This document shows, one piece after another, positions 3,234-33,742 of a stretch of 35,671 bases of DNA. This DNA is from a virus. Location of the stretch: positions 1 to 35,671 of IMG/VR virus record IMGVR_UViG_3300034378_000133; one strand, written 5' to 3'. The notes under the pieces were generated by a model, which did not search any database, was not told the DNA's origin, and saw only the letters and a list, made by a program, of their open reading frames with translations. The position numbers were made by a program, and so were the translations under genes. The stretch's first letter is position 1. Every line of letters starts with the position of its first letter.

Positions 3234-3566
3234 TTATTCTTTTAATTTCTTAATTTGTTGGCAAGTTTTACAGACTATAGCTGGTTCATCTGCTGGTATG
3301 TGAGGATTTTGAACCCCAGCAGTTCCCAGCGTTGCCATTTTTTTTGCTATATGCATATAGTCTTTATCTCTATAGCGAGACAATCGATCCATGCCTTGTG
3401 TAAATATAATATCTAAATACTTCGGAATTTTAGCAGGCATATATGTATTAGGATTTCCATATCTATCTCTTTCTGTTATTTTAACATATAAATCAGCGTC
3501 AATAAACTTTCCACATTTTTCACATTGAAGTCTTATTTGATAACTTTTGTCTTTTTTTGTAGGCAT
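3234..3566 (-). CDS. Zinc-ribbon protein with C-terminal IxKLxE tail
   Basis: This 110-residue protein has a CEKCGKF pair near residue 15 and a second pair at the end, CKTCQQIKKLKE, which closes the protein. The four cysteines suit a treble-clef or split zinc-ribbon fold. The final I-K-K-L-K-E matches twelve other proteins in this window (I-x-K-L-x-E). The region between the cysteine pairs (about 70 residues) differs from all its relatives. It begins one base after the stop of the next gene upstream, and its own stop is one base before the following ATG. The biochemical role is unknown. Confidence 0.85.
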   Translation of the reverse strand: MPTKKDKSYQIRLQCEKCGKFIDADLYVKITERDRYGNPNTYMPAKIPKYLDIIFTQGMDRLSRYRDKDYMHIAKKMATLGTAGVQNPHIPADEPAIVCKTCQQIKKLKE

Positions 3567-3567
3567 A

Positions 3568-4011
3568 TTATTCTTGTAACTTATGTATTTGATAACAAGT
3601 GTCGCACATTATTTGTTCTTTATTAGATCCATTCATTTGGGCATAGATTCTTCTAATAATATCTTTCTTTTCTTTTCGCCAACGTTCTTTAATTAGTCTT
3701 TCAATATCAAATTTATGATTAGTATCTGATAGAACATTTGCTGGACTCAAGATCGTCTCTTTTTTTATTTTAAACTGTCTAGAATAAACTTTAATTTCGG
3801 TAAGATTATGATGGGCTATTTTTTTAGCTCCTTCATCTACAAATCTTATAACAAAAGGAAACCTCTCTTCACACTTCTGACATTTAACAGTATAAGTACC
3901 AATAACAAGTCGATCCTTATTGGTTATAATATCCTTATATTTTTCTTTATCTTGCCACGAAGGCGCACAAGGAAGCTTTTTTATTCTTTTAGTTTTTTTA
4001 TTTGATGGCAT
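3568..4011 (-). CDS. Zinc-ribbon protein with C-terminal IxKLxE tail
   Basis: From an ATG at 4011 (an in-frame ATG at 4020 is possible) the protein has 147 residues starting MPSNKKTKRIKKLPCAP. A first pair CQKCEER lies near residue 47 and the protein ends CDTCYQIHKLQE. The start lies inside the last codons of the upstream gene: the bases for CHQIKKLKE there also encode MPSNKKTKRI here. The gene at 33222-33542 starts the same way inside another tail, which is why I prefer 4011. The central region is unique and basic. Function is unknown. Confidence 0.82.
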   Translation of the reverse strand: MPSNKKTKRIKKLPCAPSWQDKEKYKDIITNKDRLVIGTYTVKCQKCEERFPFVIRFVDEGAKKIAHHNLTEIKVYSRQFKIKKETILSPANVLSDTNHKFDIERLIKERWRKEKKDIIRRIYAQMNGSNKEQIMCDTCYQIHKLQE

Positions 4012-4364
4012 GTTTTGCAAATACGGCCAGGATAGCCGTAGCCAGCTATTATGTTTTGATTACCCAAAGAAAAATTCATCATCTTTGGATAACACTTTTT
4101 AAAACAACCAATTTTCTTTTTACATTCTTCGCATTTTCTTTGGCCATCGCTCAAATTGTTTTCTCTTAAAAACATTGAAAGATAACAATAAATAGGCAGA
4201 GAATAAAGGCCAATAATAATAGATAATAAATATTTTAAAGTAAGATTAGTGCTGCTTGCGCCCGCTAACACAAATGATTGCCATATCATTACTAAAAACA
4301 TCAATGCTGTTGCGATTAAAAAGTAACGACCCGTTATTCTTTTAATTTTTTTATTTTCCAACAT
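3981..4364 (-). CDS. Membrane protein with cytoplasmic zinc ribbon and IxKLxE tail
   Basis: After a short basic N-terminus there are two hydrophobic stretches (from GRYFLIATALMFLVMIW and from LKYLLSIIIGLYSLPIYCYL), probably two transmembrane helices. These are followed by a zinc-binding unit: CEECKKKIG, then the closing CKTCHQIKKLKE. It is the only member of the tail family here with membrane segments. The start codon (4364, or 4373) lies within the end of the upstream tail gene, and its own tail codons overlap the start of the next gene. The tail would face the side opposite to the inter-helix loop, most likely the cytoplasm. No family is recognised. Confidence 0.8.
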   Translation of the reverse strand: MLENKKIKRITGRYFLIATALMFLVMIWQSFVLAGASSTNLTLKYLLSIIIGLYSLPIYCYLSMFLRENNLSDGQRKCEECKKKIGCFKKCYPKMMNFSLGNQNIIAGYGYPGRICKTCHQIKKLKE

Positions 4365-4636
4365 GTTGGGCAATATAATTTTTCTTCAACTTTTTTCCCA
4401 GGATACAATTGTTCCTCGGGAGGTTCTATAGCTATTGTTTTTTTACACTTTACGCATTTAATCTTTTCTGCCTTTGGTGGGGGTGGTTCTGAAAAAGCGC
4501 TTTCGTAATCTGGCTTAAAAGGCGACGGATAAGGATGCATCATTTTTTGCCTATAAAGTTCTGTTTTATATTGTCGTCTTAACAGTTCTTGCTCCAGGGC
4601 TATTTCTGCGCGTGTTTTTTGTCTTGGTTGTTCCAT
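4334..4636 (-). CDS. Zinc-ribbon protein with C-terminal IxKLxE tail
   Basis: This 100-residue protein starts MEQPRQKTRAEIALEQELL with an amphipathic helix. A proline-rich linker (SEPPPPKAEK) follows, then CVKCKKTIAI and the closing CPTCWKIKKLKE. The ATG at 4636 is preferred over one inside the upstream gene because it sits one base after that gene's stop (TAA-T-ATG). The linker suggests a separate helical N-terminal part attached to a C-terminal zinc module. The partner or target is unknown. Confidence 0.85.
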   Translation of the reverse strand: MEQPRQKTRAEIALEQELLRRQYKTELYRQKMMHPYPSPFKPDYESAFSEPPPPKAEKIKCVKCKKTIAIEPPEEQLYPGKKVEEKLYCPTCWKIKKLKE

Positions 4637-4637
4637 A

Positions 4638-5903
4638 TTAATCACGATATAAAATTTTTCTTCCCCAACCAGGCGTTTCGCCATGGTCTCTAGTAGCCAA
4701 CCAAATAACGTCATAGTTGGGTTCTTTGTCTGGAAAATCCGCATAAAGATCTCCCATTATAATTAGAACACAAGGTTCAATATTTCGTTTTTCAATTTCA
4801 TCAAAGACACATCTATAATCGGTTCCTCCGCCCCCGAAATACTGAATGTTTAATTGATAATCATTTATTTCTTTCCAATCGTAAACCTGGGTATCAATAC
4901 TACACATATAAGCTTTTACATTTCGAAAGGCACCTAGAAGCCCCTTAACTTCTCCAGCAAACTTATTTAACTGTTGTTCGGAAATAGAGCCCGAAGTATC
5001 AACTGCGATCACAACCTCGTCAATCTTCTCGCCTTCTTCCATAGACGGCATTATAAACTCTGAATCTAAGAACCTGCGATCAGACTGACGATAACTGAAG
5101 TCATCGTGAGATTTTACCACATAATTTACCAGAACTTCTCGCCAATCTACTATGGGTGCCGCTTCTTCGACCAATCTTTGAAGCTCGCCAGGCAAATTTC
5201 CTTTTTGCTTTTGAGCATGAGCATCTGCTGCCTGCTTAACTGCTCGCTGCCATTTCTTTTGCATTTTTTTGTTTTTAGGGTTTCCTTGTCCTTTATACCA
5301 TTGCGAATGATCGCCTCGACACCCACAATTTCCCTCGCCTTCTACTATAGTCATATCTTCATTTTTTTGACCACCATTTCCATCTGCAAATCCCATTTTC
5401 ATCTTTCCTATAACTTTAGGACCCTTGCCTTTTTTATTACCCCTTCCTTTTCCTTTGGTCTTTTTGTCCTGCTTAGTAGCCTTGCTTATTCTATTTCTTA
5501 AATCATTATAAATCTGTTCTGCCGACCAACCTTTGTATCGTTTATCTAAAAGAACTCCTTTGGGCAATCTCATTCCTGTATATCCATTAATATCTCCATT
5601 GATTGACAGATCGGCCGCTATATTCCAAAGCATGCGCTCTCGAGCTCCTACTCTCCATAAATGCCCTAAGGCCAGATGTAAAACTTCATGCACAAGAACC
5701 GCTCGCATTTCCTCATCTTTAAGCTTTTTCATAAATTCCTCTCCATAGTATAAATACTGACCATCTAACCCAACCCCTGCAGTCATTACCGCTTGTTTGG
5801 TTAGACGAGGAATTAACATAAAGAGTAAATAACCAAAAAATGGGAATCTTTCAGTCTTTGCGAGCCATATTTTGGTTTGAATTATGCGATCTTCTAGATT
5901 CAT
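4638..5903 (-). CDS. VWA-like putative metallopeptidase (DUF2201 type)
   Basis: This 421-residue protein has an N-terminal metallopeptidase-like domain with HEVLHLALGH at residues 72-81, a zincin HExxH motif with a third His. A basic low-complexity linker rich in Lys and Gly follows (about 140-170). A C-terminal von Willebrand A-like domain begins at DEVVIAVDTSGSIS (about 295), where DTSGS is the metal-ion adhesion motif. This is the architecture of bacterial DUF2201/VWA-like proteins encoded next to MoxR AAA ATPases. Here the MoxR gene is upstream, separated only by a homing endonuclease gene. By analogy with MoxR/VWA pairs, the two would form a chaperone-like remodelling complex in the cytoplasm. 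Its substrate is unknown. Confidence 0.88.
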   Translation of the reverse strand: MNLEDRIIQTKIWLAKTERFPFFGYLLFMLIPRLTKQAVMTAGVGLDGQYLYYGEEFMKKLKDEEMRAVLVHEVLHLALGHLWRVGARERMLWNIAADLSINGDINGYTGMRLPKGVLLDKRYKGWSAEQIYNDLRNRISKATKQDKKTKGKGRGNKKGKGPKVIGKMKMGFADGNGGQKNEDMTIVEGEGNCGCRGDHSQWYKGQGNPKNKKMQKKWQRAVKQAADAHAQKQKGNLPGELQRLVEEAAPIVDWREVLVNYVVKSHDDFSYRQSDRRFLDSEFIMPSMEEGEKIDEVVIAVDTSGSISEQQLNKFAGEVKGLLGAFRNVKAYMCSIDTQVYDWKEINDYQLNIQYFGGGGTDYRCVFDEIEKRNIEPCVLIIMGDLYADFPDKEPNYDVIWLATRDHGETPGWGRKILYRD

Positions 5904-6685
5904 AAATTAATATATTTTCTTTCTAAATAAACTGTAGCATCTTTATATAAATAGTTTACAATTCTTTTAATTTGTTTGTTTCCTCTATATCGCAAATTAG
6001 AAATTAGGTGCTTTCTTTGAACTTTATATATATTAACTTTATTTACAGAACAATTTTTTATTAATACTTTTTGAATACTTTTAAGAAAACCACAAGAACC
6101 CGAAGTTATAGTTAAAGACCACTGTCCTTTATTGCACTTTGACCAACATCCATCGCCATCTGTCACACCACGAATAAAATGGTGATTAAATTCTTTAGGT
6201 ATTTGAGAGGGACATTGAATAGTAAATGATTTCTTGGGTGTTATATTAAAATTAGTTCTTAAGTCATCGACTAATTTTTTATTTGAAATATCAATATAAA
6301 ATTGATTTTTTGCCTTTAGTTCTTTAAGGGGATAGGTAGCCTTAAGATGTTCTAAAAATTTTTGTAGATGATTTTTGTCTTTTTCGTGTAAACTGATTTT
6401 GATTTCGTTTCCTTTATTCTTACGTATATTTCCATCTGCTGCGATAAATCCAGCCCAATAGCAAGATTGTTCATTATATTGAGAAAAGAAGTTATTATTA
6501 CAAAAATATATATGTGGTCTCCCTTTGCTATAACCAAGATGTCCTTTTTGAAATCCAACTTTTTTAATCATTTCTCGAAACTGCTTGCTTTCATGATAAC
6601 ATTCTTGAGAACAATAAGAACGATAATTGCTTGGCCAATCCATAAAAATATCACCACATTTTTTACATTTAATCTTCGTTTTCAT
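5900..6685 (-). CDS. LAGLIDADG homing endonuclease
   Basis: The 261-residue protein starts at 6685 with a zinc finger (CKKCGDIF, then CSQEC). A FQKGHLGYSKGR segment follows, then two LAGLIDADG-type motifs: WAGFIAADGNI near residue 78 and IRGVTDGDGCW about 95 residues later. Two motifs in one chain indicate a monomeric enzyme. It sits between the MoxR and VWA genes and overlaps both: the first 17 bases lie in the MoxR gene and the stop overlaps the VWA start as ATGA. This suggests a free-standing selfish gene that inserted without breaking its neighbours. No intron is evident. Confidence 0.9.
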   Translation of the reverse strand: MKTKIKCKKCGDIFMDWPSNYRSYCSQECYHESKQFREMIKKVGFQKGHLGYSKGRPHIYFCNNNFFSQYNEQSCYWAGFIAADGNIRKNKGNEIKISLHEKDKNHLQKFLEHLKATYPLKELKAKNQFYIDISNKKLVDDLRTNFNITPKKSFTIQCPSQIPKEFNHHFIRGVTDGDGCWSKCNKGQWSLTITSGSCGFLKSIQKVLIKNCSVNKVNIYKVQRKHLISNLRYRGNKQIKRIVNYLYKDATVYLERKYINL

Positions 6686-7682
6686 GCTCGTCATCATAGA
6701 ATCGCCCAAATTTGTCAAGCCATTTTTGAAACTTAGAGTAAGCCTTAAAGATATTAACATTTCGTCTAGTAATATCTCGAATAGTCAAGATATGAAATTC
6801 AGTAGGCATTTTCTCGGCATACTTGAAAACATTCTCAATGTTTTTCTTGTCGGCCTTAGCAACAATAGAAGACGAGAGCGCATAAAGAGTGCTAGGCTCT
6901 GAAGGAACTTTTACTTTTTTATCGCCCTTAAGAATTTTATTAATGTCAGGTAGATTTGCATAAACTTCTATATAGGAGAAGAACTCACTAGCCATTCCTT
7001 TTCCGATTGTTCCCGCAATTACGTCTTCATCTGTAATTCCTGCTTTTAGAAAGTCAGAAACATATTCCCAGGTTCGCGGAGTTGGATATGCCTTGTCTTC
7101 AACGTTGGGTTTTTTACAAAGGGCAGCTTCTTTAAATTTGAGAAACCCAATGACTTTCTCGCTAATGCCATTTTTCCAGGCCCAGTCTTTCCAAGCCTCT
7201 ACTTCTGGCTCGACAAAGAAATGAACAAACCTATTTGAAAGAGCGGCATTAAATTTTCCCACTCCTGACTTGTCAGTTTCGCGATTGGAAGCAGCCACCA
7301 TTCGTACTCCTTCTGGAAACTTGTAGTGATCCCCGATTGATCTGTCTAAGATTATTCGATAACATCCATTTTGAACTGTCATTGGCGCATTTCCTATTTC
7401 ATCAAAAAGAATTAAAAAGTTTTCCTTAGAATTTGGTTCAGGAAAAAAATCAGGATAAAGCCACTTGGCACGATTTTTTTCCTTATCAGGAAATGGCAAC
7501 CCTAGAAGATCCGAGGGCATAAGAAGAGGTAACCGAATATCAATAAATTTCCAGTTAAACTCTTCTGCTAATTGCTTGCAGATACTTGACTTGCCAATTC
7601 CAGGGCTAGACCACAAAAGAACTGGCTTATGATTCAACTTAAGGATTGACCTCAGCTGTTTTTTGGCGCTTCCAATGTTCAT
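6669..7682 (-). CDS. MoxR-type AAA+ ATPase
   Basis: The 337-residue protein has Walker A SSPGIGKSS (25-33), Walker B ILFDEIGNA (91-99) and a sensor segment AASNRET after the arginine-rich stretch. The region between Walker A and B (LPLLMPSDLLGLPFPD) is typical of MoxR-family ATPases, which read MDSSDLLGLP-like text there. C-terminal residues form a helical lid. MoxR ATPases pair with VWA proteins to insert metals or remodel complexes, and the VWA-metallopeptidase gene lies two genes downstream in the same direction. The plus-strand text AGGAGG just before the start codon is the complement of a ribosome-binding site, so it cannot serve that role for this gene. Confidence 0.9.
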   Translation of the reverse strand: MNIGSAKKQLRSILKLNHKPVLLWSSPGIGKSSICKQLAEEFNWKFIDIRLPLLMPSDLLGLPFPDKEKNRAKWLYPDFFPEPNSKENFLILFDEIGNAPMTVQNGCYRIILDRSIGDHYKFPEGVRMVAASNRETDKSGVGKFNAALSNRFVHFFVEPEVEAWKDWAWKNGISEKVIGFLKFKEAALCKKPNVEDKAYPTPRTWEYVSDFLKAGITDEDVIAGTIGKGMASEFFSYIEVYANLPDINKILKGDKKVKVPSEPSTLYALSSSIVAKADKKNIENVFKYAEKMPTEFHILTIRDITRRNVNIFKAYSKFQKWLDKFGRFYDDEHENED

Positions 7683-7705
7683 ATGTTTTTTAGGAGGAAA
7701 ATTAG

Positions 7706-8215
7706 TTAATTATCCTTTTTTATTATCTTTTTAGCTTTGTCAAATCGCTTCTTGTGGATAACTTGTGAATACTTTCCATTCTTATCAAGATTTTTTTTGT
7801 AAGTTTTAAAATAAAGTCCAGACATAATTCTACCAATTTTCTCGGTAGCATATTCAACTTCTCTCCTTATTTCTTGTGGGCTGGTGTGAGTTTGATAGAT
7901 TAGATCTTGGAATGGTTCGGTAATAGTGTGGGCAACCTCATGACAAAGAGATTCAGTAAAAGTAAAAAAGTCTTTTTTTTTCCACGTCTTCACGGCAGAA
8001 GGGAAAAAAGTCAGCATAGCTCGATGATAGTGAACATTGACGTCCACTTTTGCAAAAACGCTTTCGCCATCAACCTTATAGGCCTCCTCCCCACTATCAT
8101 CTTCTTTGATAGTAATGTTGAATTCATAATCAACGCCAGCTAGCGTCTTAACCCTGTCAATAACATCAAACGCATCTTCTATAAATTTTTTCTCTTCTTT
8201 TTTGTCTTTGAACAT
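7706..8215 (-). CDS. HExxH metalloprotease-like protein
   Basis: The 169-residue protein carries CHEVAHTITEPF at residues 91-102, a zincin HExxH motif, after a beta-rich half containing VDVNVHYHRAMLTFFP. The length and layout resemble SprT-like or small phage metallopeptidases, but I cannot assign a specific family. It is transcribed just upstream of the MoxR gene and likely belongs to the same functional group. A DnaA-box sequence TGTGGATAA lies inside the gene near its 3' end (7753-7761) without an attached promoter. The catalytic role is inferred from the motif alone. Confidence 0.8.
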   Translation of the reverse strand: MFKDKKEEKKFIEDAFDVIDRVKTLAGVDYEFNITIKEDDSGEEAYKVDGESVFAKVDVNVHYHRAMLTFFPSAVKTWKKKDFFTFTESLCHEVAHTITEPFQDLIYQTHTSPQEIRREVEYATEKIGRIMSGLYFKTYKKNLDKNGKYSQVIHKKRFDKAKKIIKKDN

Positions 8216-8219
8216 ATTA

Positions 8220-8471
8220 TTATTCTGTTAATTTTTTAATCTTGGCACAGATTTTGCAATACATATTTTCAAAGGGATAAATATATGGAGCGTAATAAAA
8301 ACCTAATTTTTTTCCACAACCAGTACATTTTAAAACTCTCATTTTTTCTGGTGGCGCAGTAGAAGAGCTGGACTTGGTAGACATGGCACTTGCCGAACAT
8401 TTTCCACCACCAACTGATGAATGAGATGTTATTGGCATTCTTTTTCCATATAATTTTTTAAGCCATTTCAT
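8220..8471 (-). CDS. Zinc-ribbon protein with C-terminal IxKLxE tail
   Basis: The 83-residue protein starts MKWLKKLYGKRMP. A Ser/Thr-rich, low-complexity stretch follows (SASAMSTKSSSSTAPP), then CTGCGKKLGF and the closing CKICAKIKKLTE. The variable part looks disordered, so the C-terminal zinc module and tail are the only folded elements visible. The start overlaps the stop of the CHC2 gene as ATGA. The stop precedes the protease start by a few bases. Confidence 0.83.
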   Translation of the reverse strand: MKWLKKLYGKRMPITSHSSVGGGKCSASAMSTKSSSSTAPPEKMRVLKCTGCGKKLGFYYAPYIYPFENMYCKICAKIKKLTE

Positions 8472-8740: not shown

Positions 8741-8741
8741 A

Positions 8742-9200
8742 TTACTCTATTAACTTCTCAATTTTACGACAAGTAGGACAATAACACCTTAAATCATAGC
8801 CACCCCAATGATAGGGTCTTCTAATCGTTTTATTAAAAATACCAAAGAAAATAGTTTTATTTGAATCAAGCTTCTTGTTACATTTTTTACACCTTAATTC
8901 AGACCGAGAAAGAATTAAATACTTGTCACCATAATGCGCTTTCTTTTTTAACCGCCCATGATATAATCTACAATTACGAAATGTTTTATTATCGTGGGCC
9001 TGATTAAACGCCCCCTTTGTCATGAGCTTAACCTTTCTGGCCATACAATCACTGCTAGTCCTCAAATAAACATCCCGATACCAATATTGATCATTCCATT
9101 CTCTAAAGAAATGAAGAGAAGACTCTAAGGGCGGAAACCTTTCATCTTTAGGGAATTCTTGCTTGATCCACTCATCTTTTATTTCCCATTTCATGCTCAT
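8742..9200 (-). CDS. Zinc-ribbon protein with C-terminal IxKLxE tail
   Basis: The 152-residue protein starts MSMKWEIKDEWIKQEFPKDE. Its N-terminal two thirds are rich in Trp, Arg and Phe, and it ends with CKKCNKKLDSNKT and the closing CPTCRKIEKLIE. The start overlaps the stop of the helicase gene as ATGA, and the next gene starts one base after its stop. It lies between the two halves of the split primase, so a replication-linked role is possible, though only from position. No known domain besides the zinc module is visible. Confidence 0.82.
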   Translation of the reverse strand: MSMKWEIKDEWIKQEFPKDERFPPLESSLHFFREWNDQYWYRDVYLRTSSDCMARKVKLMTKGAFNQAHDNKTFRNCRLYHGRLKKKAHYGDKYLILSRSELRCKKCNKKLDSNKTIFFGIFNKTIRRPYHWGGYDLRCYCPTCRKIEKLIE

Positions 9201-15809: not shown

Positions 15810-17420
15810 TTACATTGGCGGCATACCGCCTCCTTGTGGTACTGGCGGCGATTCTTTTTCTGGCTCGATAGCAATTGTTGTTTCGGTAATCAAAACAGAT
15901 GAAGCAACGGAAGCCGCATTCTCAAGAGCACTACGAGTAACTTTAACTGGATCAATAATTCCCATTTCAAACATGTCCCCGAATTTAGCATTTACAATAT
16001 CATATCCTTCTTTAAGCTTCTTCTTTTTAGCTTCAGTCAAAATCTTTTCAAGATCCTCGCCACCATTTTCGATAATCTGATTAAATGGAACGGCTAATGA
16101 TTTCTTAAGAATTCTATTAACAGGTGAACTTTCTTTGAGTTTCTCTGCTATTCTAAGCAGGGGCAACCCTCCGCCTTCAATAATTCCTTCTGCCATTCCA
16201 GCCGCCACCGCAGCCACAGCATCTTCTACTCTATATTTCTTTTCTTTCTGTTCAAGTTCGCTGGTAGCACCAACTTTAATTACGGCCACGCCACCACTTA
16301 AACCAGCTATTCTTTTCTTCAGATTTTCTTTATCATAATCGCTTTCAGCTACAGCTTCCGCGGCCTTGACTTGGGTAAGTCGTGTTTCGAGTTCTTTCTG
16401 ATCTCCTTGTCCTCCCACAATAATAGTTTCTGACTTACTGGACACAACCCTATCAGCCCTTCCTAGCATATCAGGGGTTACATCAGTTATTTTCATTCCT
16501 GTTTCCTCCGTAACAAAAGTTCCCCCTGTAATTACTGCGATATCTTGCAAAACCTCACGCTTATTATCTCCAAAGCTAGGCGCTTTAATTGCTAAAGGCT
16601 TAAACTTGCCTTGTATTCTATTCACTACAAGAGCAGCAAGAGCAGATTCGGTTACATCATCAGCAATAATCATTAGCTTCTTTGTCTTTTGTTCTCCCAA
16701 GGTGGTTATTAATGGTACTAAATCTTCCACATCGGAAATTTTGTGGTCAGTAATCAAAATATCAATACCATGATATTCGCAGGTCATCTTTTTTGGATCA
16801 GTAATAAAGTAAGGAGAAATATATCCTTTATCTAGTTTAATTCCTTTTACAACTTCTTTGGTCGTTTCAATTCCCTGAGATTCTTGAACATCAACAACCC
16901 CATCTTCTCCAGTCTCGTCCATTACTTCTGCTACCAAATTACCAATATCTTCATCTCGAGAAGCAATAGTTCCAATCTGCGCCATTTGTTCTTTGGTTGT
17001 GACTTTTTGAGATTCTTTTTTTAGCTGTTTTACTATATCGGCCACGGCTTTATTAAGTTCCTTGCTGAGCTTAACTGGATTGGCTCCTTCTTTAATCTCG
17101 GCAAAACCATTTTCAATTAATGCTTGGGCTATAATAATCGCCGAACTCGTACCATCGCCACAATCATCATTAACATTAAGAGCCACTTTCCTAAGCATAT
17201 CAGCGCCCTGTTTTTCTTGTGGATCTTTTAAGTCAAACTCTCGAGCAACCGTAACCCCATCACGAGTGCTTTCGGGTGGTTGACCGTACGGTTGATCAAA
17301 GACCACATTTTTTCCAGCCCCACCAAAAGTTACTTTGACGGCCTGGGTTAATTTGTTAATACCAGATAACAACTTGCCTCTGGCTTGTTGACCATAAGAT
17401 ATTATTTTTTTTGCGTTCAT
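15810..17420 (-). CDS. groEL: Chaperonin GroEL
   Basis: The 536-residue protein is full length with the expected blocks: the nucleotide-binding loop GDGTSSAIIIAQ, STRDGVTVARE, apical domain text EDGVVDVQESQG, equatorial VEDAVAAVAAGMAEGIIEGGG, and the C-terminal tail GGGMPPM. The first third is divergent (VTFGGAGKNVVFD and NDDCGDGT in place of the usual LGPKGRNVVLD and NDVAGDGT), as expected for a phage-borne copy. Together with groES just upstream it should form a folding chamber for phage proteins such as the capsid. The ATG overlaps the groES stop (ATGA). Confidence 0.96.
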   Translation of the reverse strand: MNAKKIISYGQQARGKLLSGINKLTQAVKVTFGGAGKNVVFDQPYGQPPESTRDGVTVAREFDLKDPQEKQGADMLRKVALNVNDDCGDGTSSAIIIAQALIENGFAEIKEGANPVKLSKELNKAVADIVKQLKKESQKVTTKEQMAQIGTIASRDEDIGNLVAEVMDETGEDGVVDVQESQGIETTKEVVKGIKLDKGYISPYFITDPKKMTCEYHGIDILITDHKISDVEDLVPLITTLGEQKTKKLMIIADDVTESALAALVVNRIQGKFKPLAIKAPSFGDNKREVLQDIAVITGGTFVTEETGMKITDVTPDMLGRADRVVSSKSETIIVGGQGDQKELETRLTQVKAAEAVAESDYDKENLKKRIAGLSGGVAVIKVGATSELEQKEKKYRVEDAVAAVAAGMAEGIIEGGGLPLLRIAEKLKESSPVNRILKKSLAVPFNQIIENGGEDLEKILTEAKKKKLKEGYDIVNAKFGDMFEMGIIDPVKVTRSALENAASVASSVLITETTIAIEPEKESPPVPQGGGMPPM

Positions 17421-17677
17421 TTTTTTATAGCCAATATATCATCTTCTTTAAGAATGACATACTTGACTTGTTTTTTTTCTTTTATTTCTCGACCATTTAT
17501 ACAATATTTACTAAAGAAGACATAGTCTCCTGGTTTAACCTGTCCAATGCCATCCCCAATAGCGATGACTTTGCCTTCCGTAGCATCCTTTTCTCTGTCA
17601 GGAAGATCAAAGTTTCCTGCCTTAAGGGCAACATCAGTGGGCTCTATTAAGATATTTCCTTTAGTTGGTTTTATCAT
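17417..17677 (-). CDS. groES: Co-chaperonin GroES
   Basis: The 86-residue protein starts at 17677, MIKPTKGNILIEPTDVALKA. It has a mobile-loop region (residues 15-30), TEGKVIAIGDGIG, VKPGDYVFFSKY and the C-terminal strand VKYVILKEDDILAI, all in GroES order. The mobile loop is short compared with bacterial GroES (about 95 residues) and lacks the usual IVL hydrophobic tripeptide in clear form. The start lies just below a large inverted repeat (17688-17753). An in-frame ATG further upstream at 17743 would add a non-homologous extension. Confidence 0.92.
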   Translation of the reverse strand: MIKPTKGNILIEPTDVALKAGNFDLPDREKDATEGKVIAIGDGIGQVKPGDYVFFSKYCINGREIKEKKQVKYVILKEDDILAIKK

Positions 17678-17687
17678 ATTTGTTTTG

Positions 17688-17753
17688 TGGAATAGGGCGA
17701 TTCCAGCCCTCCAAGTTATCATAAAACTTTTTTCTGAAATCACCCCTATTCCA
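17688..17753 (-). promoter_or_regulatory. Long inverted repeat in the groES leader
   Basis: A perfect ten-pair stem (TGGAATAGGG/CCCTATTCCA) continues with a second stem of eight pairs (GATTTCAG/CTGGAATC, one G-U). A loop of about 27 bases contains GGAGGG. It lies eleven bases before the groES start. It does not match CIRCE (TTAGCACTC-N9-GAGTGCTAA). It could be an RNA thermometer, a processing site or an operator. Confidence 0.7.
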
Positions 17754-17757: not shown

Positions 17758-18156
17758 TTATTCAATTAATTTTTTAATTCCCCAACATTCATCACATCGA
17801 TTATAATACCAGCCAGATTTGGTTTTGCGAATTTTGCTGGGCTTGCCACATTCTTCGCAGATAGATTCCGACTCTTCTTCGGCCTTGCGGATTAAATCGT
17901 GAATTTCCTTCCTGGTACCATGAGTATAGAATCGAAGCCCAGCATATTTTTCTTTAACTTGAGTAGCTTCTGGAATTTCTTCTCCCGTTTTCTCGCAATA
18001 TGCATAAATATCAGAACATAATTTGTCAATTAAATCGTACCATCCATCGTCACAATCAAGCCCTAAGGGGATTAAGCTTTGCTTAATAGGTTTGTCCTTT
18101 CCAACAAAAAGCTCGGGATATTTTTTGAATAATTTTTTCGTAAGTTTGGGATTCAT
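17758..18156 (-). CDS. Zinc-ribbon protein with C-terminal IxKLxE tail
   Basis: From an ATG at 18156 the protein has 132 residues starting MNPKLTKKLFKKYPELFVGK. The N-terminal half (LGLDCDDGWYDLIDKLCSDI and GLRFYTHGTRKEIHDLIRKA) looks like a complete alpha/beta domain. The C-terminal module is CEECGKPSKI ... YNRCDECWGIKKLIE, with the tail at the very end. A similar unnamed domain occurs in some phage proteins, but I cannot name it. It is the gene transcribed just before groES. Confidence 0.82.
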   Translation of the reverse strand: MNPKLTKKLFKKYPELFVGKDKPIKQSLIPLGLDCDDGWYDLIDKLCSDIYAYCEKTGEEIPEATQVKEKYAGLRFYTHGTRKEIHDLIRKAEEESESICEECGKPSKIRKTKSGWYYNRCDECWGIKKLIE

Positions 18157-18285: not shown

Positions 18286-18465
18286 TTAAGACTTAGCAGA
18301 CACGCTTAAATCCTTTGTATAGTACACGGTTTTGCCACACTTAGGACAATATAAAGAGATTAAATGATCCTCTGTCCAAAATGCATAACCGCATTCATCA
18401 CATTTAAACTCCCGCAATGTCACTACTTTTTTATTTTTTAATTTTTTTTTAAGAGTTGTTGCCAT
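18286..18465 (-). CDS. Small zinc-ribbon protein
   Basis: The 59-residue protein starts MATTLKKKLKNKKVVTLREF. It has two pairs, CDECGYAF and CPKCGKTV, separated by 17 residues, which is a classic zinc ribbon. It lacks the IxKLxE tail of the other family. The start at 18465 is chosen because the longer frame has a TTG start and no ribosome-binding site. A promoter candidate lies just upstream. DNA or RNA binding is likely from the fold. Confidence 0.8.
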   Translation of the reverse strand: MATTLKKKLKNKKVVTLREFKCDECGYAFWTEDHLISLYCPKCGKTVYYTKDLSVSAKS

Positions 18466-19171: not shown

Positions 19172-19465
19172 TTATTCTTTTAGTTTATTAATTTTATAAT
19201 CGTCTAAAGCCTTTCTAAAATATTTGGCCAGACACCTTTCATTACAAAAATGTATTGTGCCACTTCCCCTAAGTCTTGCCACCACTCTCCAGCGATGTCC
19301 CCTGGTGTCTGATTGATTGTGTTTAAGCCATTCTTTATATTCTTCATCAGGTAATTTTTTTGCCCATCCAGTATTACTTCTATCAAAAGACTGAATAACT
19401 ATGTGTGGTGACTTAGTTTCTTTTCCACATTCATCGCACCTATACTTTTCTATTACTTCTCTCAT
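19172..19465 (-). CDS. Zinc-ribbon protein with C-terminal IxKLxE tail
   Basis: The 97-residue protein has CDECGKET near residue 10 and HFCNERCLAKYF near 73, ending DDYKINKLKE. In this member an extra helix of about twelve residues separates the second cysteine pair from the I-N-K-L-K-E tail, so the tail is not simply part of the zinc knuckle. The start overlaps the upstream stop as ATGA. Confidence 0.84.
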   Translation of the reverse strand: MREVIEKYRCDECGKETKSPHIVIQSFDRSNTGWAKKLPDEEYKEWLKHNQSDTRGHRWRVVARLRGSGTIHFCNERCLAKYFRKALDDYKINKLKE

Positions 19466-25577: not shown

Positions 25578-25982
25578 TTATTGTTTCAATTTCTCAATTT
25601 TTATTTCTTCTTCTAATTTATCGAGATGTTTTTTTAAGCGTTTAACCACTTGATCGACATCACCAAATACCGTTGTCTTGTCTCTGCTTCTAGGGCCAAT
25701 ATTCGTATGGTTATAAGTATGTATAAGATAACCATTATCCACTCTTCTTATATTATATTCAGTTGGTTCGTCTACGTTCACATTTCCAAGAGTAGGCAGT
25801 GGATCAAATGGCATTGCTTCTTCGGCTTTTGTTGAAAACTTAGGATCGTTTGGATTATATTTTAATGAATTTCCTTCAATAATGTAACCGTTTTTTACTC
25901 GGATAATTCTTTTGGAAAGCTTTCTTGTATCTACTCCAATACTTTTTTCTTCTGAATCTGAATTTGTTAATCCCCCTATCAT
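25578..25982 (-). CDS. Hypothetical protein with duplicated NGY motif
   Basis: The 134-residue protein contains two similar segments, IIRVKNGYIIEGNSLKY near residue 25 and NIRRVDNGYLIHTYNHT near 77, each a beta hairpin by pattern. A C-terminal helix follows and ends in EEEIKIEKLKQ. That ending is close to, but not identical with, the I-x-K-L-x-E tail of the zinc-ribbon family (final Q instead of E). The function is unknown. Confidence 0.75.
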   Translation of the reverse strand: MIGGLTNSDSEEKSIGVDTRKLSKRIIRVKNGYIIEGNSLKYNPNDPKFSTKAEEAMPFDPLPTLGNVNVDEPTEYNIRRVDNGYLIHTYNHTNIGPRSRDKTTVFGDVDQVVKRLKKHLDKLEEEIKIEKLKQ

Positions 25983-27924: not shown

Positions 27925-27932
27925 ATAAGTAG

Positions 27933-28200: not shown

Positions 28201-28202
28201 TA

Positions 28203-28325: not shown

Positions 28326-28454
28326 AGACAGTTCACAGAACTAAAAACTGTAAATAACAAATTATGACTATCCAAATACGCGTTGAGACAGAATCTACAA
28401 TTAAATAAAAGTAAAGCCAATAGCACACTTACCGTGTGAATTTGTTATATATTT

Positions 28455-28874
28455 ATGCCAACACAAAGTAAACAACAACAAGATTTAAAAAAGCTTAAGA
28501 CTAAAATGTCAAAGGCTGAGCTTCCAGAAGTTACCAAAGAACTAAACAAAGAAATGAAAAACATCCGAAAGACCAAGCGGGCTATTTCTGTTGTTGATAA
28601 AGCCCAAAAACAACAACTAAAAAGCTATTTAGAAACTATTAAAGACAAAGTAGATATGATTCTTAATGCCATAGACCAAGACAAAGTTGAGAAGGCTGGA
28701 CTTGCCCAATTAGCAAAGGCATTTAGATCATTGGCATCTGAAATGATGAGCGCGAATCAAGAAGAGATAAAGAAGATTGAGCAGAAGAGTTTGAATATCA
28801 ATATTGACGTTAAAAATATGAGTTCTTCGGAGTTGCTCGAATTCTTGAGTAAGAAAAGCCAAGAGCACGATTAA
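28455..28874 (+). CDS. Probable small terminase subunit
   Basis: The 139-residue protein is helical and charged, starting MPTQSKQQQDLKKLKTKMSK. It has a long coiled-coil-like middle (KQQLKSYLETIKDKVDMILN) and an acidic end. The position, one homing endonuclease gene before the large terminase subunit, is where the DNA-recognition subunit normally lies. No helix-turn-helix signature is obvious, so this rests on order and composition. Confidence 0.68.
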   Translation: MPTQSKQQQDLKKLKTKMSKAELPEVTKELNKEMKNIRKTKRAISVVDKAQKQQLKSYLETIKDKVDMILNAIDQDKVEKAGLAQLAKAFRSLASEMMSANQEEIKKIEQKSLNINIDVKNMSSSELLEFLSKKSQEHD

Positions 28875-28878
28875 TCCT

Positions 28879-29604
28879 ATGAAAAAAAAGAGAAAAAAAA
28901 TACGATGCAAATATTGTAAAGAGTTTTTTATTCCTAAATATCCATATTTAGCGAAGATTAGAAAATTCTGTTCTCGAAAATGTAGGATTTTTTTTGATAA
29001 GGAAAATATTAAGATGGGAACCAAAGAATGCATCAGATGCGAAAAAACCTTTGAAGATTTAAAATACAAAATAAAACGAAGAAAGTATTGCTCTCAAAGA
29101 TGTTACTGGGATGGAATAAAAGAAAATAGAAGCGGTAAAAATCACCATTATTATGGAAAGAAATTGTCTAAAGAACATAAGGCAAAAATGAGTGAGTCCA
29201 AAAAGGGCAAAGTTTCTCCAAGAAAAGGAGCCAAGCTTTCAGATGAAACAAGAAAGAAATTAAGCATCTCTCATATGGGGCTATTTGTTGGCAATAAATC
29301 AGCTTTATGGAAAGGAGGAATTACTAAATTAAATTTTCAAATTAGAAATTGTCTTAAATATAAACAATGGCGAACTGCTATATTCGAACGAGATAATTAT
29401 GTTTGCCAAGAGTGTAATCAAATTGGCGGAAAGCTAAACGCAGCCCATTATCCTGTATCGTTTAGTTCAATTTTAAAAGAAAATAATATTAAAAATTATA
29501 AACAAGCCTTAAACTGTAAAAAATTATGGGACACAAATAATGGAAAGACTGCATGCGTGAAGTGCCATAAAAAACTAGACAGACGGGGAAAGTGCAATGA
29601 CTAA
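28879..29604 (+). CDS. HNH homing endonuclease with NUMOD3 motifs
   Basis: The 241-residue protein has two N-terminal zinc fingers (CKYCKEFF...CSRKC and CIRCEKTF...CSQRC). NUMOD3-like repeats follow (NHHYYGKKLSKEHKAKMSES, SDETRKKLSISHMG). An HNH domain (FERDNYVCQECNQIGGKLNA, AHYPVSF, CVKCHKKLD) closes the protein. It separates the two terminase genes and overlaps the start of the large subunit by eight bases. Confidence 0.93.
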   Translation: MKKKRKKIRCKYCKEFFIPKYPYLAKIRKFCSRKCRIFFDKENIKMGTKECIRCEKTFEDLKYKIKRRKYCSQRCYWDGIKENRSGKNHHYYGKKLSKEHKAKMSESKKGKVSPRKGAKLSDETRKKLSISHMGLFVGNKSALWKGGITKLNFQIRNCLKYKQWRTAIFERDNYVCQECNQIGGKLNAAHYPVSFSSILKENNIKNYKQALNCKKLWDTNNGKTACVKCHKKLDRRGKCND

Positions 29605-31219
29605 TTTTTTAAACCTATCCTATGATGAAATTCTAAAGGAAAGGGCAAAAATATTATTACATTCCCAATACGACCGAGACTGGCAGGCAGTTTTAAAACA
29701 GATGTGTAAAACTGACCCTGTCTTTTTTTTCAACTTTTTTTGCTTTACTAAAGACCCAAAGAAAAAGCCAGCCAACCTTCCATTCATTCTCTATCCATAT
29801 CAAAGAAATTTAATTAGATGGTTAGAAGACTTGCTTGTAAAAGAAGAGAATGGATTAATAGAAAAGTCTAGACAGATGGGCATTACTTGGATAATGATGA
29901 CCTGGCTTTTATATCACTGGTTATTTACCCCCGACTTCATCTCATTAGTAGGATCTCGTAAAGAAGAATTGGTAGATAAGCGAGATAAAGATGATACTTT
30001 ATTTTATGAAATAGACTACAATCTAAGCAGATTACCAACATGGATACTACCAAAACGATTTAATCCCGTTAAGGATCGGCGCCATCTTCTATTGGTTAAC
30101 CCAGAAAACGGAGCCTCAATTATTGGAGAATCATCTAACAAAGACTTCGGCCGAGGTGGTACTTTTAATTGTATCTTTATGGATGAGTTCACCACTTGGC
30201 CAGAAGCGAGTGCCTCTTGGGACGGCTGTTCTGAAGCTTCTAAAATTAAGATTCCAGTTTCTACCCCTAAACCAGCTACCTTTTTCAAAACCCTACGATT
30301 CTCTAATCAAATGAAAGGAAGGGTTAAAACCATTCATTGGAGAGAACACCCAGAAAAGAACGATGAATGGTATGAAGACCAAAAAGAAAAATATTCTGCA
30401 GAAACCATAGCCCAGGAAATTGACATCTCTTATGACGTAACTGGACGAGGAAAGGTTTATCCAGAGTTTGATGCCGTTCCTATTGGAAACTATTCCTACA
30501 ATCCAAAGCTTCCTCTCTATACTGCAAGTGACTACGGATTAGATTCTACTGCAACTATCTGGGCTCAACAGAATACTAATGGCGATGTATTCATAATTGA
30601 TTCTTATCAAAATCACGACCTTACAATTGATTTCTATATTCCATTCTTCACAGGCAAAAAATACACACCCACACAACTACGAAAAAACGGATTTCAATAC
30701 ACCAACGACGAGCTTAGAAAAATAGAAGAACATAAAAAATTTAAAAGAGCCAGACATTTCGGCGACCCCGCGGGAAAACAAAGAACAGTGGTTATCGACA
30801 AGACCGTTCTCAAAACTCTTTCTCAGTCAGGTATACATGTGTTTACAAATGAACGAGCTCAATCATTCCCCGCAAGAAAAGAAGCCACTAAAATGTTATT
30901 GAGACGACTATATATAGACGAAAAGCAAAAAGCATTTATCGAAGCCATTCAGCAATCACGATATCCTAAACGAAAAGAATCTAGCCAAGCCACTTCACCA
31001 GTTTCAAAACCAGTTCACGACCAGTTCTCTCACTATAGATCCGCCCTCGAATATTTGGCAGTTAATTTAAGATTAGTTCCTGGCAAGCCTCGTAAACTTA
31101 ATTACCTAAAGGGCAAACCAAAGCTAGAAGAAGACGGAACCTTACACGAAGATCAACTTAAAAAAGAAAAGAAACGGCGTATTGTGCGCTATTCTTTTCG
31201 TTCGTATGGGAAAGGTTAA
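29597..31219 (+). CDS. Terminase large subunit
   Basis: The 540-residue protein has a packaging ATPase with Walker A SRQMGITW (91-98, the variant SRQ-type P-loop of phage terminases) and Walker B CIFMDEF (192-198). The C-terminal nuclease domain has YTASDYGLDSTATIWAQ near residue 310 and HFGDPAGKQRT near 388. It cuts concatemers and drives DNA into proheads. It is the clearest evidence that the window is from a tailed phage. The stop leads directly into the small basic gene at 31236. Confidence 0.95.
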   Translation: MTNFLNLSYDEILKERAKILLHSQYDRDWQAVLKQMCKTDPVFFFNFFCFTKDPKKKPANLPFILYPYQRNLIRWLEDLLVKEENGLIEKSRQMGITWIMMTWLLYHWLFTPDFISLVGSRKEELVDKRDKDDTLFYEIDYNLSRLPTWILPKRFNPVKDRRHLLLVNPENGASIIGESSNKDFGRGGTFNCIFMDEFTTWPEASASWDGCSEASKIKIPVSTPKPATFFKTLRFSNQMKGRVKTIHWREHPEKNDEWYEDQKEKYSAETIAQEIDISYDVTGRGKVYPEFDAVPIGNYSYNPKLPLYTASDYGLDSTATIWAQQNTNGDVFIIDSYQNHDLTIDFYIPFFTGKKYTPTQLRKNGFQYTNDELRKIEEHKKFKRARHFGDPAGKQRTVVIDKTVLKTLSQSGIHVFTNERAQSFPARKEATKMLLRRLYIDEKQKAFIEAIQQSRYPKRKESSQATSPVSKPVHDQFSHYRSALEYLAVNLRLVPGKPRKLNYLKGKPKLEEDGTLHEDQLKKEKKRRIVRYSFRSYGKG

Positions 31220-31235
31220 ACCTATCATATGTTCT

Positions 31236-31379
31236 ATGAGAAAAAAGCTCCCCAAATCAATTCGCAAGCATATAAGAAAAGAAAAGGCTCGCATTAGGCG
31301 AGAACTTTTCTTTTTATCTGATCAGCGTGAAGCTATTAAAAAGCTTTACGAGAAAATTGCTACTCGTTATAAGTTATAA
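31236..31379 (+). CDS. Small basic protein after the terminase
   Basis: The 47-residue protein starts MRKKLPKSIRKHIRKEKARI and is strongly basic and helical. Starts at 31206 or 31182 would extend it into the terminase end. Its last 20 bases overlap, in antisense, the end of the minus-strand gene at 31360-31539. It could bind nucleic acid, but no family is recognised. Confidence 0.6.
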   Translation: MRKKLPKSIRKHIRKEKARIRRELFFLSDQREAIKKLYEKIATRYKL

Positions 31380-31539
31380 AAGCAACTGGTCCACATTCGT
31401 GACAATCACAGAAAGAAATCTTAATTAGATTATCTTTGCTTATTCCTGCAAGAAATTTCCCAACCCTTCTTTCAAGGGCTCCCATCTTATAGCTATCACT
31501 CTTAACATTTTTAACGTGAATAACTTTAAACTTAATCAT
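31360..31539 (-). CDS. Hypothetical protein, 59 aa
   Basis: The frame from ATG 31539 reads MIKFKVIHVKNVKSDSYKMG. It continues with ERRVGKFLAGISKDNLIKIS and FCDCHECGPVAFITYNE. The layout strand, helix ending FLAGIS, strand resembles small phage and sporulation proteins of the Cse60 type, with added cysteines, but the match is by eye only. It is convergent with, and overlaps, the plus-strand gene ending at 31379; no terminator separates the two operons. Confidence 0.65.
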   Translation of the reverse strand: MIKFKVIHVKNVKSDSYKMGALERRVGKFLAGISKDNLIKISFCDCHECGPVAFITYNE

Positions 31540-31560
31540 GTTATTTTTTTAATATTTTGA

Positions 31561-31697
31561 TTACTGCTCGACCTTTGAATATTCCTTAAAATAATTCTGC
31601 CAATATTCTCTATTAGCATTTATACTATTATTACATCTAAAGCATATGGTATTCGACCAACATTTATTTTATGTCCTTTTTGAAATCCCTTTGGCAT
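31561..31697 (-). pseudogene. Broken HNH-type or zinc-finger gene remnant
   Basis: A frame starting MPKGFQKGHKIN at 31697 meets a stop after 25 codons. A shifted frame over the same stretch reads CWSNTICFRCNNSINANREY and ends near 31561. The two halves together resemble the N-terminus of the phage HNH or LAGLIDADG proteins here (compare FQKGHLGYSKGR in the gene at 5900-6685), so a frameshift remnant of a homing endonuclease is likely. Confidence 0.5.
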
Positions 31698-31698
31698 A

Positions 31699-32169
31699 TT
31701 AAATAGTTATTTTGTGTTTTTTTAAAAACTCCTCTAGTTTAATGCCTGCCATATTTTTTTCTCGAGGAATCAATTCAATTTCTACCTTATCAAACCAATT
31801 AATTATTTCAGTAATTCTTCCTAAAATATCATTAACTAATTCAGGATTGTTTATTTTTTTGTTTTTGACTTTACCCTTTTTAATCCAACTAAAAGCCACA
31901 GAACTATCAGTTTTGATTATAACCTTGTTAACTCCTTGTTCGCTGGCATACTTAAGTCCCTCAAAACAGGCCAAAATTTCACTTACATTGTTAGAACCGC
32001 CCTTCTTCAGGCCCAAGTTATGCTGAAAGTAATCAGCGTTAACATCATAAATACCAACCGACATTCTTCTCATGCTCTGATCCTGTACATTATTGTACAG
32101 ACAGGAACCATCAACATGAACTTCTAGCGGGCCCTTAAGACCTATATTTTTTCCGTGGACTACTTTCAT
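31699..32169 (-). CDS. Ribonuclease HI family protein
   Basis: The 156-residue protein has LEVHVDGSCLYN (D20), NNVSEILACFEGLKYA (E64), VIIKTDSSVAFSWI (D88) and IPREKNMAGIKLEEFL, the RNase HI motif order. The last carboxylate position is less clear than in the bacterial enzyme. It would remove RNA primers or RNA-DNA hybrids in replication. Its start overlaps the upstream stop as ATGA. Confidence 0.86.
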   Translation of the reverse strand: MKVVHGKNIGLKGPLEVHVDGSCLYNNVQDQSMRRMSVGIYDVNADYFQHNLGLKKGGSNNVSEILACFEGLKYASEQGVNKVIIKTDSSVAFSWIKKGKVKNKKINNPELVNDILGRITEIINWFDKVEIELIPREKNMAGIKLEEFLKKHKITI

Positions 32170-32435
32170 ATCAACTTACCCTGAGCCAGTTCTCTAACCT
32201 CTTCAAAGTCATTAGCCCTAAACTCAAGATAGTTATTATTATTCATTTGTTGACCTTTAAATTTATATTTTTTATCTTTCACTAAAGCCTTAACCTTAGA
32301 AGCATTCCAACAAACCACTGGCATTTCCCTTCCGTGTTCCCGAGTATAAATTAAAAACTTTCTGGTATTCCCAAACCTAGTGGGCCTAACAGAAATTTCT
32401 TTTACATAATGTACTGTGGCTTTGATTGTTTGCAT
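32166..32435 (-). CDS. Hypothetical protein, OB-like
   Basis: The 89-residue protein alternates strands (IKATVHYVKEISVRP, RKFLIYTREHGREMPVVCWN, YKFKGQQMNNNNYLEFRAND) in a pattern like an OB fold. W and several aromatic residues are placed as in nucleic-acid-binding versions. It lies between RNase HI and a cluster of zinc-ribbon genes. The assignment is inference. Confidence 0.68.
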   Translation of the reverse strand: MQTIKATVHYVKEISVRPTRFGNTRKFLIYTREHGREMPVVCWNASKVKALVKDKKYKFKGQQMNNNNYLEFRANDFEEVRELAQGKLI

Positions 32436-32701
32436 TATTCTTTTAGTTTATAAATTTGATAACACTCTTTTGAACAGAAATAATAACCGCCAATTTGTCC
32501 AATTATAACTTCTTCATTTCCCACCTTACGCTTACAAACCATGCACGCAGGTTGATGATAATGAATTGCTGCTGGAATTGCCTTTCCTAGCTCGCTAGCC
32601 TTACCATCTATTGTTACTTTCCATTGATAACTAGGACTTGTCCCAAGCGCAGACCATCCCTCTCTATTATAAAAAACTTTTAGACGAGTAGGCTTTCTCA
32701 T
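32435..32701 (-). CDS. Treble-clef protein with C-terminal IxKLxE tail
   Basis: The 88-residue protein starts MRKPTRLKVFYNREGWSALG. It has CMVCKRKVGNEEVI and the closing FCSKECYQIYKLKE. The FCSKEC form of the second pair is shared with the next two genes and resembles treble-clef fingers such as TRASH. The middle (SYQWKVTIDGK) resembles YYRWKITNKT in the gene at 32972-33229, so these two are close paralogues. The stop TAA overlaps the next ATG. Confidence 0.86.
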   Translation of the reverse strand: MRKPTRLKVFYNREGWSALGTSPSYQWKVTIDGKASELGKAIPAAIHYHQPACMVCKRKVGNEEVIIGQIGGYYFCSKECYQIYKLKE

Positions 32702-32970
32702 TCTTTTAATTTAAATATCTTATAACACTGCTTGGAACAGAAAAATATAAAGCCCTTTCTGGGCATACCATTATCGGTATACATACATTTCCCTACTGGC
32801 AATTCTTTTTCGCAAAGCTCACAAATAATAGGACAAGAATATCCCGCTTTTATCCCAGAAAACCAATTAACATCGCTGTCGGTAGTATCGCGGGTACTTA
32901 ATACCCACCTTAACTCTCCATCATAATTATTGCCAGAATCTCGATAATTTATTATCCCTTCCTTTAACAT
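32698..32970 (-). CDS. Treble-clef protein with C-terminal IxKLxE tail
   Basis: The 90-residue protein starts MLKEGIINYRDSGNNYDGEL. It has CELCEKELPVGKCMY and the closing FFCSKQCYKIFKLKE. The N-terminal domain (LRWVLSTRDTTDSDVNWFSG) contains a W pattern like its neighbours. The stop TGA overlaps the next start codon. The role is unknown. Confidence 0.86.
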   Translation of the reverse strand: MLKEGIINYRDSGNNYDGELRWVLSTRDTTDSDVNWFSGIKAGYSCPIICELCEKELPVGKCMYTDNGMPRKGFIFFCSKQCYKIFKLKE

Positions 32971-32971
32971 A

Positions 32972-33229
32972 TTACTCGGTTAGTTTCTTAATTTGACGAC
33001 ATTCTTTGCTACAAAAAATATTTTGAAAGTCTCTTTTCTTTAGAATAAATACTTTTTGTTCATTTTTTATTTTTCTGCTACAACAACCACATTCAGGCTG
33101 ATAAGTAAAAAACAGTGTAGTAGATTCCGTTTTATTTGTTATTTTCCACCTGTAATATTTGGGATCATTAACGGCGACCCTGAATCCATTTGTATCATAG
33201 TGGGCTTTGTACTGCATCATATTACTCAA
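32972..33229 (-). CDS. Treble-clef protein with C-terminal IxKLxE tail
   Basis: The 85-residue protein starts MSNMMQYKAHYDTNGFRVAV, with the YYRWKITNKTES strand. It has CGCCSRKIKNEQKV and the closing FCSKECRQIKKLTE. It is a close paralogue of 32435-32701 by the R/QWK(I/V)T block and the FCSKEC finger. An alternative ATG three residues later (MMQYK) fits the TAA-T-ATG spacing better. Confidence 0.85.
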   Translation of the reverse strand: MSNMMQYKAHYDTNGFRVAVNDPKYYRWKITNKTESTTLFFTYQPECGCCSRKIKNEQKVFILKKRDFQNIFCSKECRQIKKLTE

Positions 33230-33542
33230 CTAACTTCTTAATTTGATAATCCCTTTTTATATCATCAAGTTTATCAAGGAAAGCCTTGAAAGAAGAATTC
33301 TTGCCCTCAAGATAATAACCGACTATCGCATTCAATACTTTCTGAGCCTCGTCAGAATAAACTTGTAATGGCGAAGCTGGAACTCCTAAAATTTTACAAA
33401 TATTTCTAGTCACTTCAACATGATCCTCCTTCTGTAATTCAATATAATCCCTATACTTAGTAGCTTCTATCCACTTTCTTATCTCAATCCTTTCTTCTTT
33501 TGTGAGCGGATCTATTCTTTTAGTTTCTTTATTTGATGGCAT
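33222..33542 (-). CDS. Tail-only member of the IxKLxE family, no zinc site
   Basis: The 106-residue protein starts MPSNKETKRIDPLTKEERIE, is helical and charged, and contains no usable cysteine pairs, yet it ends RDYQIKKLVE. Its start lies inside the tail codons of the upstream gene (33512-33742), as for the gene at 3568-4011. It is a key case: the tail has been kept without the zinc module. Function is unknown. Confidence 0.82.
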   Translation of the reverse strand: MPSNKETKRIDPLTKEERIEIRKWIEATKYRDYIELQKEDHVEVTRNICKILGVPASPLQVYSDEAQKVLNAIVGYYLEGKNSSFKAFLDKLDDIKRDYQIKKLVE

Positions 33543-33742
33543 GATTTTGAGCAGTAAAAAAATATATCCATACTTGACCTAAATCCACCGTGTTCTATTA
33601 TAGTATAAAAAAATTCTTCTGGGTTAAGTTTCTTATTACAAACTTCACATCGTGAATCAGTGCTATAATCTCTTATAAAAGTATGCGCGATTCCTCTCTT
33701 CGCCTGTTTGTAGCATTGGTTGGATGAGTATAGTTTAGACAT
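33512..33742 (-). CDS. Treble-clef protein with C-terminal IxKLxE tail
   Basis: The 76-residue protein starts MSKLYSSNQCYKQAKRGIAH. It has CEVCNKKLNPEEFF and the closing YCSKSCHQIKKLKE. It is the first gene after the non-coding block at 33743-34326 and the only one in this cluster with a strong ribosome-binding site (AGGAGG, 13 bases upstream). Its tail codons overlap the next gene's start by 31 bases. Confidence 0.86.
   Translation of the reverse strand: MSKLYSSNQCYKQAKRGIAHTFIRDYSTDSRCEVCNKKLNPEEFFYTIIEHGGFRSSMDIFFYCSKSCHQIKKLKE

Follow-up and report, generated by a model that had tools for sequence, protein, structure and literature searches.

Thirteen small proteins encoded in a 35,671-base virus record (IMG/VR record IMGVR_UViG_3300034378_000133, the whole of which is called the window here) end at the stop codon in one constant tail, I-x-K-L-x-E, behind fronts that vary from member to member. 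The record is one piece of a large phage genome that is unclassified, and has a gene set mostly on the minus strand. Our explanation of the family, held tentatively and a little short of probable, is that a zinc-finger module has expanded in one phage lineage, with its terminal helix as a constant docking or packing surface. An earlier sequence-only reading had pointed out the thirteen ends, and all of them were confirmed, on the minus strand, at the left coordinates after which the proteins are named below (given with a cysteine (Cys) pair and the residues up to the stop; aa, amino acids).

3234..3566, minus strand: tail protein 3234, 110 aa; CxxC...CKTCQQIKKLKE, stop.
3568..4011, minus strand: tail protein 3568, about 147 aa; CQKC...CDTCYQIHKLQE, stop; ATG 4011 within the tail-coding DNA of the preceding gene.
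3981..4364, minus strand: tail protein 3981; CEEC...CKTCHQIKKLKE, stop; two apparent membrane stretches (read from the sequence); probable ATG 4364 within the preceding tail.
4334..4636, minus strand: tail protein 4334, about 100 aa; CVKC...CPTCWKIKKLKE, stop; TAATATG start after the VWA gene.
8220..8471, minus strand: tail protein 8220, 83 aa; CTGC...CKICAKIKKLTE, stop; 41% identity over 39 aa to a tail protein of the relative L109 (see below).
8742..9200, minus strand: tail protein 8742, 152 aa; CKKC...CPTCRKIEKLIE, stop.
17758..18156, minus strand: tail protein 17758, 132 aa; CEEC...CDECWGIKKLIE, stop; front conserved in huge phages.
19172..19465, minus strand: tail protein 19172, 97 aa; CDEC...FCNERC, a longer helix, then YKINKLKE, stop; tail 11 residues further from the last Cys.
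32435..32701, minus strand: tail protein 32435, 88 aa; CMVC...FCSKECYQIYKLKE, stop; modelled, tail helix 78-87.
32698..32970, minus strand: tail protein 32698, 90 aa; CELC...FCSKQCYKIFKLKE, stop.
32972..33220, minus strand: tail protein 32972, 82 aa; CGCC...FCSKECRQIKKLTE, stop; above the Pfam zf-FLZ cut-off.
33222..33542, minus strand: tail protein 33222, 106 aa, without a zinc site; ...RDYQIKKLVE, stop; start within the preceding tail.
33512..33742, minus strand: tail protein 33512, 76 aa; CEVC...YCSKSCHQIKKLKE, stop.
25578..25982, minus strand: possible degenerate fourteenth member, ending KIEKLKQ, stop (E to Q), without a zinc site.

The end of the last entry is one base off the tail motif (CAA for GAA) and may be due to chance. 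For the thirteen, chance is rejected as the origin of the shared tail. The window holds 156 open reading frames (ORFs; stop to stop, at least 60 aa), of which 13 end in I-x-K-L-x-E where composition predicts 0.006, and the motif occurs internally once in 16,651 positions. None of the 6,768 ORFs of other phage loci (1.32 Mb) carries this end, and the relaxed form [ILVM]-x-[KR]-[LIVM]-x-[ED] closes one of 3,452 AT-rich ORFs elsewhere; the window has 13 such ends, every one of which also fits the strict form. After column shuffles the best four-residue C-terminal pattern was shared by 3 members compared with the 13 observed, and no other unrelated four-residue end recurs like the tail in the window. 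In 12 of the 13 a Q or K precedes the I, so that the motif is longer than first described. In an alignment of eleven members (nine from the window and two from L109) only four Cys and the I, K, L and E are invariant; a wide range of residues occupies the x positions (K/H/E/N/Y/F at the first and K/Q/T/I/V at the second).

Twelve members had been described as carrying a second Cys pair just before the tail. This holds for eleven, in which the last Cys stands at I-3, the second pair being C-x2-C in seven (3234, 3568, 3981, 4334, 8220, 8742 and 17758) and C-x3-C in four (32435, 32698, 32972 and 33512). The twelfth, 19172, has the pairs CDEC and FCNERC and a tail displaced by 11 residues, or three helical turns. 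Within 35.7 kb, Cys pairs are found in 12 family members, and 33222 keeps the tail with no Cys pair at all. The fingers are recognisably related in sequence comparison, and the eleven members appear to share a treble-clef-like finger in two spacings. Weak PDB matches of the family profile to LIM and Vps39-type treble clefs are not significant (E 0.012-0.07) and span the Cys region, mostly not the tail; MYM fingers (of the MYM/FCS type) are likewise matched weakly.

AlphaFold models of 32435 and 17758, built from shallow alignments, consist of strand elements plus a terminal helix which begins at the second Cys pair and runs across the tail. For 32435 the mean predicted local distance difference test score (pLDDT) is 75 and the tail helix (residues 78-87) reaches about 86; for 17758 the mean is 68 and the helix (residues 122-131) has about 52-73, its last residues being weak. 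The tail is predicted by these models to be helical. Foldseek searches with the two models gave no significant match; the weak neighbours were MYND, C1 and ribosomal proteins, the last of which we take to be L24e, and MYND, C1 and L24e are treble clefs. Drawn as a helical wheel, the tail has its E, K, Q/K, L and I on one arc from 140 to 360 degrees, with the two free x positions at 40 and 100 degrees, opposite to it. The I and L, on the Cys side, may pack on the finger; the K and E, probably exposed, are not on that side, and packing alone does not account for their invariance.

Pattern scans covering 2.9 million viral contigs identified a single real relative, the 17,443-base contig L109. L109 encodes two adjacent tail proteins, ending in CKTCHQIEKLRE, on a stretch that also carries a portal and a capsid gene, and no third pattern match was found within its record. 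Free variation of the tail positions in relatives, which would have spoken against a constant module, is not what L109 presents, since both copies end in QIEKLRE. They keep QI-x-KL-x-E with CTT leucine codons, differing from the codons of the window. L109 is distant, its only other clearly shared protein being a homologue of the HExxH protein encoded at 7706 (25% identity, E 6e-8), of which no further homologue was found at E 0.01 among about 13,000 ORFs of the loci compared. Other searches yielded no additional relative: a DNA-pattern scan for the C-x3-C form returned nothing real, its matches being without a fitting ORF or a very short fragment; a scan of bacterial and archaeal genomes, made for the C-x2-C form only, was likewise without a real match; a profile search without the stop requirement found no real relative besides L109; phage relatives sought through terminase, primase-helicase and MoxR were only distant ones and none has the tail; and tblastn of the tail proteins against GenBank phages gave no convincing match.

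Homologues of 17758 are present in four huge phages (LR756508, LR756500, LR756511 and LR745208), with 30-41% identity across front and zinc-site region, and most of them keep the Cys pairs. Their alignment with 17758 stops at the zinc-site region or shortly behind it, and after the last Cys they continue into unrelated ends without the tail. The finger thus neither requires nor dictates the tail. Within the tail, I, K, L and E vary only by synonymous codons while the x positions change amino acid freely, which indicates that selection acts on the tail as protein. The earlier proposal of a constant C-terminal module behind variable fronts is upheld by this protein-level conservation, by the presence of the tail in L109 and by its independence of the finger in the 17758 homologues, 19172 and 33222. 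The fronts do vary, from the conserved huge-phage protein 17758 to the two apparent membrane stretches of 3981; they are not all independent, as 32435 and 32972 are full-length paralogues (35% over 85 aa).

On the docking explanation, a small C-terminal treble-clef-like zinc finger would have expanded in one phage lineage and its terminal helix would have turned constant as [Q/K]-I-x-K-L-x-E-COOH. Duplication and recombination could then have moved the finger-helix module onto different fronts, and in two members the tail would have come to stand apart from the zinc site (19172) or without it (33222). The helix would form a constant interaction surface, with I and L packing on the finger or on a partner and Q/K, K, E and the free C-terminus exposed. 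In this way varied small proteins might be docked on a single shared partner, of the phage or of the host, which would bring every front to the same site of action. The motif is found in otherwise unlike proteins, namely 33222, 17758 with its conserved front and the other zinc members. Docking is favoured because of 33222 and 19172, because the probably exposed K and E are invariant and because the motif is restricted to the very end; from these features we infer docking and a common partner, and a single shared receptor, as the earlier reading suggested, is a plausible and partly supported idea. If a partner is encoded nearby, the HExxH protein and a MoxR-VWA pair would be the first candidates, a guess made from their position.

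Several points weigh against the docking explanation. No partner was found for the tail, and L109 is the only relative contig found, whose two copies may be recent duplicates. In the eleven zinc members the helix could be conserved for packing within the molecule, and the tail of 33222 may derive from recombination between that gene and its neighbours in tandem. Codons at the constant positions are slightly more alike than expected from codon usage (0.85 vs 0.78, P 0.0005), a likeness residing mainly in the Leu codons TTA/CTA which hints at recent shared descent or a nucleotide-level constraint.

The main rival is plain paralogy, in which the tail would be the closing helix of one duplicated finger, kept for packing within the protein and C-terminal since the finger comes last, with no common receptor. 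We regard this as possible, though less likely than docking. The relatedness of the fingers, the modelling of the tail as the last helix of the finger and the weak LIM, MYM/FCS and Vps39 matches are all consistent with it, and sets of paralogues with constant ends in other huge phages need no explanation by docking. It does not readily accommodate K and E that are probably exposed and yet as invariant as the Cys ligands, a tail kept without zinc in 33222 and lying three helical turns further on in 19172, or a finger that is natively without the tail in the 17758 homologues. The sequence-only reading had itself asked whether the tail is no more than the final helix of a zinc-finger family already annotated. 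This is partly borne out, in so far as AlphaFold places a terminal helix there and 32972 passes the zf-FLZ cut-off; no known family has the tail.

A more specific form of docking, which we consider unlikely, is that the tail is an address tag whose free C-terminal helix is recognised by a phage or host receptor, which gathers a large, fast-changing set of small effectors at a replication site, the virion or a transcription complex, and that large phages such as phage G invented such tags independently. It is improbable that the members bind one another through the tail as homo- or hetero-oligomers. Such self-assembly would suit the amphipathic character of the terminal helix, whose I and L share one face, and the many tandem neighbouring paralogues, but the present data do not distinguish it from docking to another partner. 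We give slightly less credit still to a stability signal, in which the constant end would shield the proteins from a protease, or target them to one, possibly the HExxH protein encoded near tail genes in both contigs. The C-terminus is constant and charged, and the HExxH gene is the only other one with a homologue in L109 and had no further homologue in the loci compared; co-occurrence in just two short contigs is nevertheless weak, and the HExxH protein has no family match. The L-x-E end is reminiscent of a T4-type prohead protease site; this reading was rejected, since the E closes the protein and a cut behind it would have no effect.

The least likely rival, and one that we very much doubt, is a nucleotide-level element (a ribosome-binding, coupling or recombination site) translated by coincidence as the tail. 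The starts of 3568 and 33222 are to be moved to ATG 4011 and ATG 33542 and that of 3981 probably to ATG 4364, all inside the tail-coding DNA of the preceding gene, and the start of 4334 is most likely 4636, right behind the stop of the VWA gene. Most tails run directly into TAATATG or, in three cases, hold the start of the next gene. In the window the tail Leu is encoded by TTA or CTA without exception (about 3e-5 from codon usage, a feature chosen post hoc), and the codon similarity given above exceeds expectation. Against such an element, synonymous sites and x codons vary while the four amino acids are constant, L109 uses CTT and has about 20-30 bases between one tail and the next start, and 17758 has no start directly behind its tail. 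The synonymous variation and the L109 codons and spacing mostly reject it, with a residual Leu-codon signal. Since the tails adjoin or contain the next start, shared descent or a mild translational constraint is likely to act besides protein selection. The three overlapping genes begin in the preceding tail DNA in another frame and have similar N-termini (MPSNKKTKRI in 3568, MLENKKIKRI in 3981 and MPSNKETKRI in 33222); the first L109 tail ORF opens with a similar ENTETKRI, without an overlapping tail.

A literature search on shared C-terminal motifs in small phage proteins turned up only the zinc-ribbon expansion of Bacillus phage G, with about 35 zinc ribbons (YP_009015343.1) and proposed transcription-factor or DNA-binding roles (Iyer et al. 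2021, PMC7824862). The window MoxR, too, has its best GenBank match by identity in phage G. At least 17 C4-motif proteins of this phage carry (W/L)K[E/D]ND[RKN]Y within 30 residues of the C-terminus, a constant segment, found here, that is probably helical. Eleven of the pattern matches are clustered at 354-369 kb and the others lie near the capsid genes. In both families small zinc proteins have multiplied within one lineage, combining variable parts with a C-terminal segment that stays constant. In phage G, however, the tail sequence differs, a variable end follows the constant part, and the C-P-[I/L/M]-C...C-x3-C ribbon is far from the tail with a long variable stretch between. The window family profile gave no match to phage G, a negative that speaks neither for nor against homology. 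Because the tail sequences differ, we call the phage G family an analogue and imply no homology. A zinc-protein expansion with a constant C-terminal helix is already paralleled there, and the I-x-K-L-x-E tail is not in known families.

In some members a C-x2-C...FCS-x2-C spacing with a helix behind it resembles that of zf-FLZ (PF04570), MYM/zf-FCS (PF06467) and YHS (PF04945), FLZ being a plant family. FCS-x2-C is present in 32435, 32698 and 32972, YCS-x2-C in 33512 and FCN-x2-C in 19172; the spacing is absent from the seven C-x2-C members. Against the zf-FLZ cut-off of 23.4 bits, 32972 scores 26.6 and 32435 18.9, and all members except 32972 are under the Pfam cut-offs. We know of no FCS-type finger that ends in I-x-K-L-x-E.

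Constant ends occur in other huge phages too, some of them looking like ordinary paralogy, and therefore a shared end alone is less unusual. LR756500 has nine proteins with an MK[YF]I-x-x-Y-x-x-F-type N-terminus, variable middles and a NADDFG end (several NADDF GFFDN-like), the N-terminus resembling the sequence that targets T4 internal proteins to the capsid. LR756508 and LR756500 also have larger proteins in paralogous sets, with DRIWDCG and YRCFGTGN end regions.

Large phages encode many small proteins of unknown function, and a constant end on variable proteins offers a handle on them. Should one partner bind the tail, some 13 of the roughly 57 genes of the fragment could be explained by a single pull-down, and the phage G family would be open to the same logic in a cultured phage. 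If only paralogy is at work, another zinc-finger expansion in a large phage has been documented.

Besides the tail proteins, the window encodes a MoxR ATPase with a VWA partner, a primase/helicase, the terminase large subunit, GroEL and GroES (the GroEL, GroES and VWA names are our own reading of the sequences), and 23 tRNA genes are packed at its left end (158-2375). The HExxH gene and the MoxR-VWA pair lie in the same gene run as six tail genes:

4638..5903, minus strand: VWA-type MoxR partner, with four tail genes directly downstream of it; 'HNH endonuclease' by its PHROGs name, VWA being read from the sequence.
6669..7682, minus strand: MoxR-type AAA+ ATPase, a context gene.
7706..8215, minus strand: HExxH (CHEVAHT) protein, encoded by the gene that directly follows 8220; homologue in L109; no match in family searches, and a lead only.

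The phage-encoded GroEL and GroES (15810-17743) adjoin tail protein 17758. The fragment is also rich in zinc proteins outside the tail family between 18286 and 25571, where other small Cys-pair proteins without the tail are encoded at 18286, 18610, 20236, 22493, 22740, 22880 and 25419.

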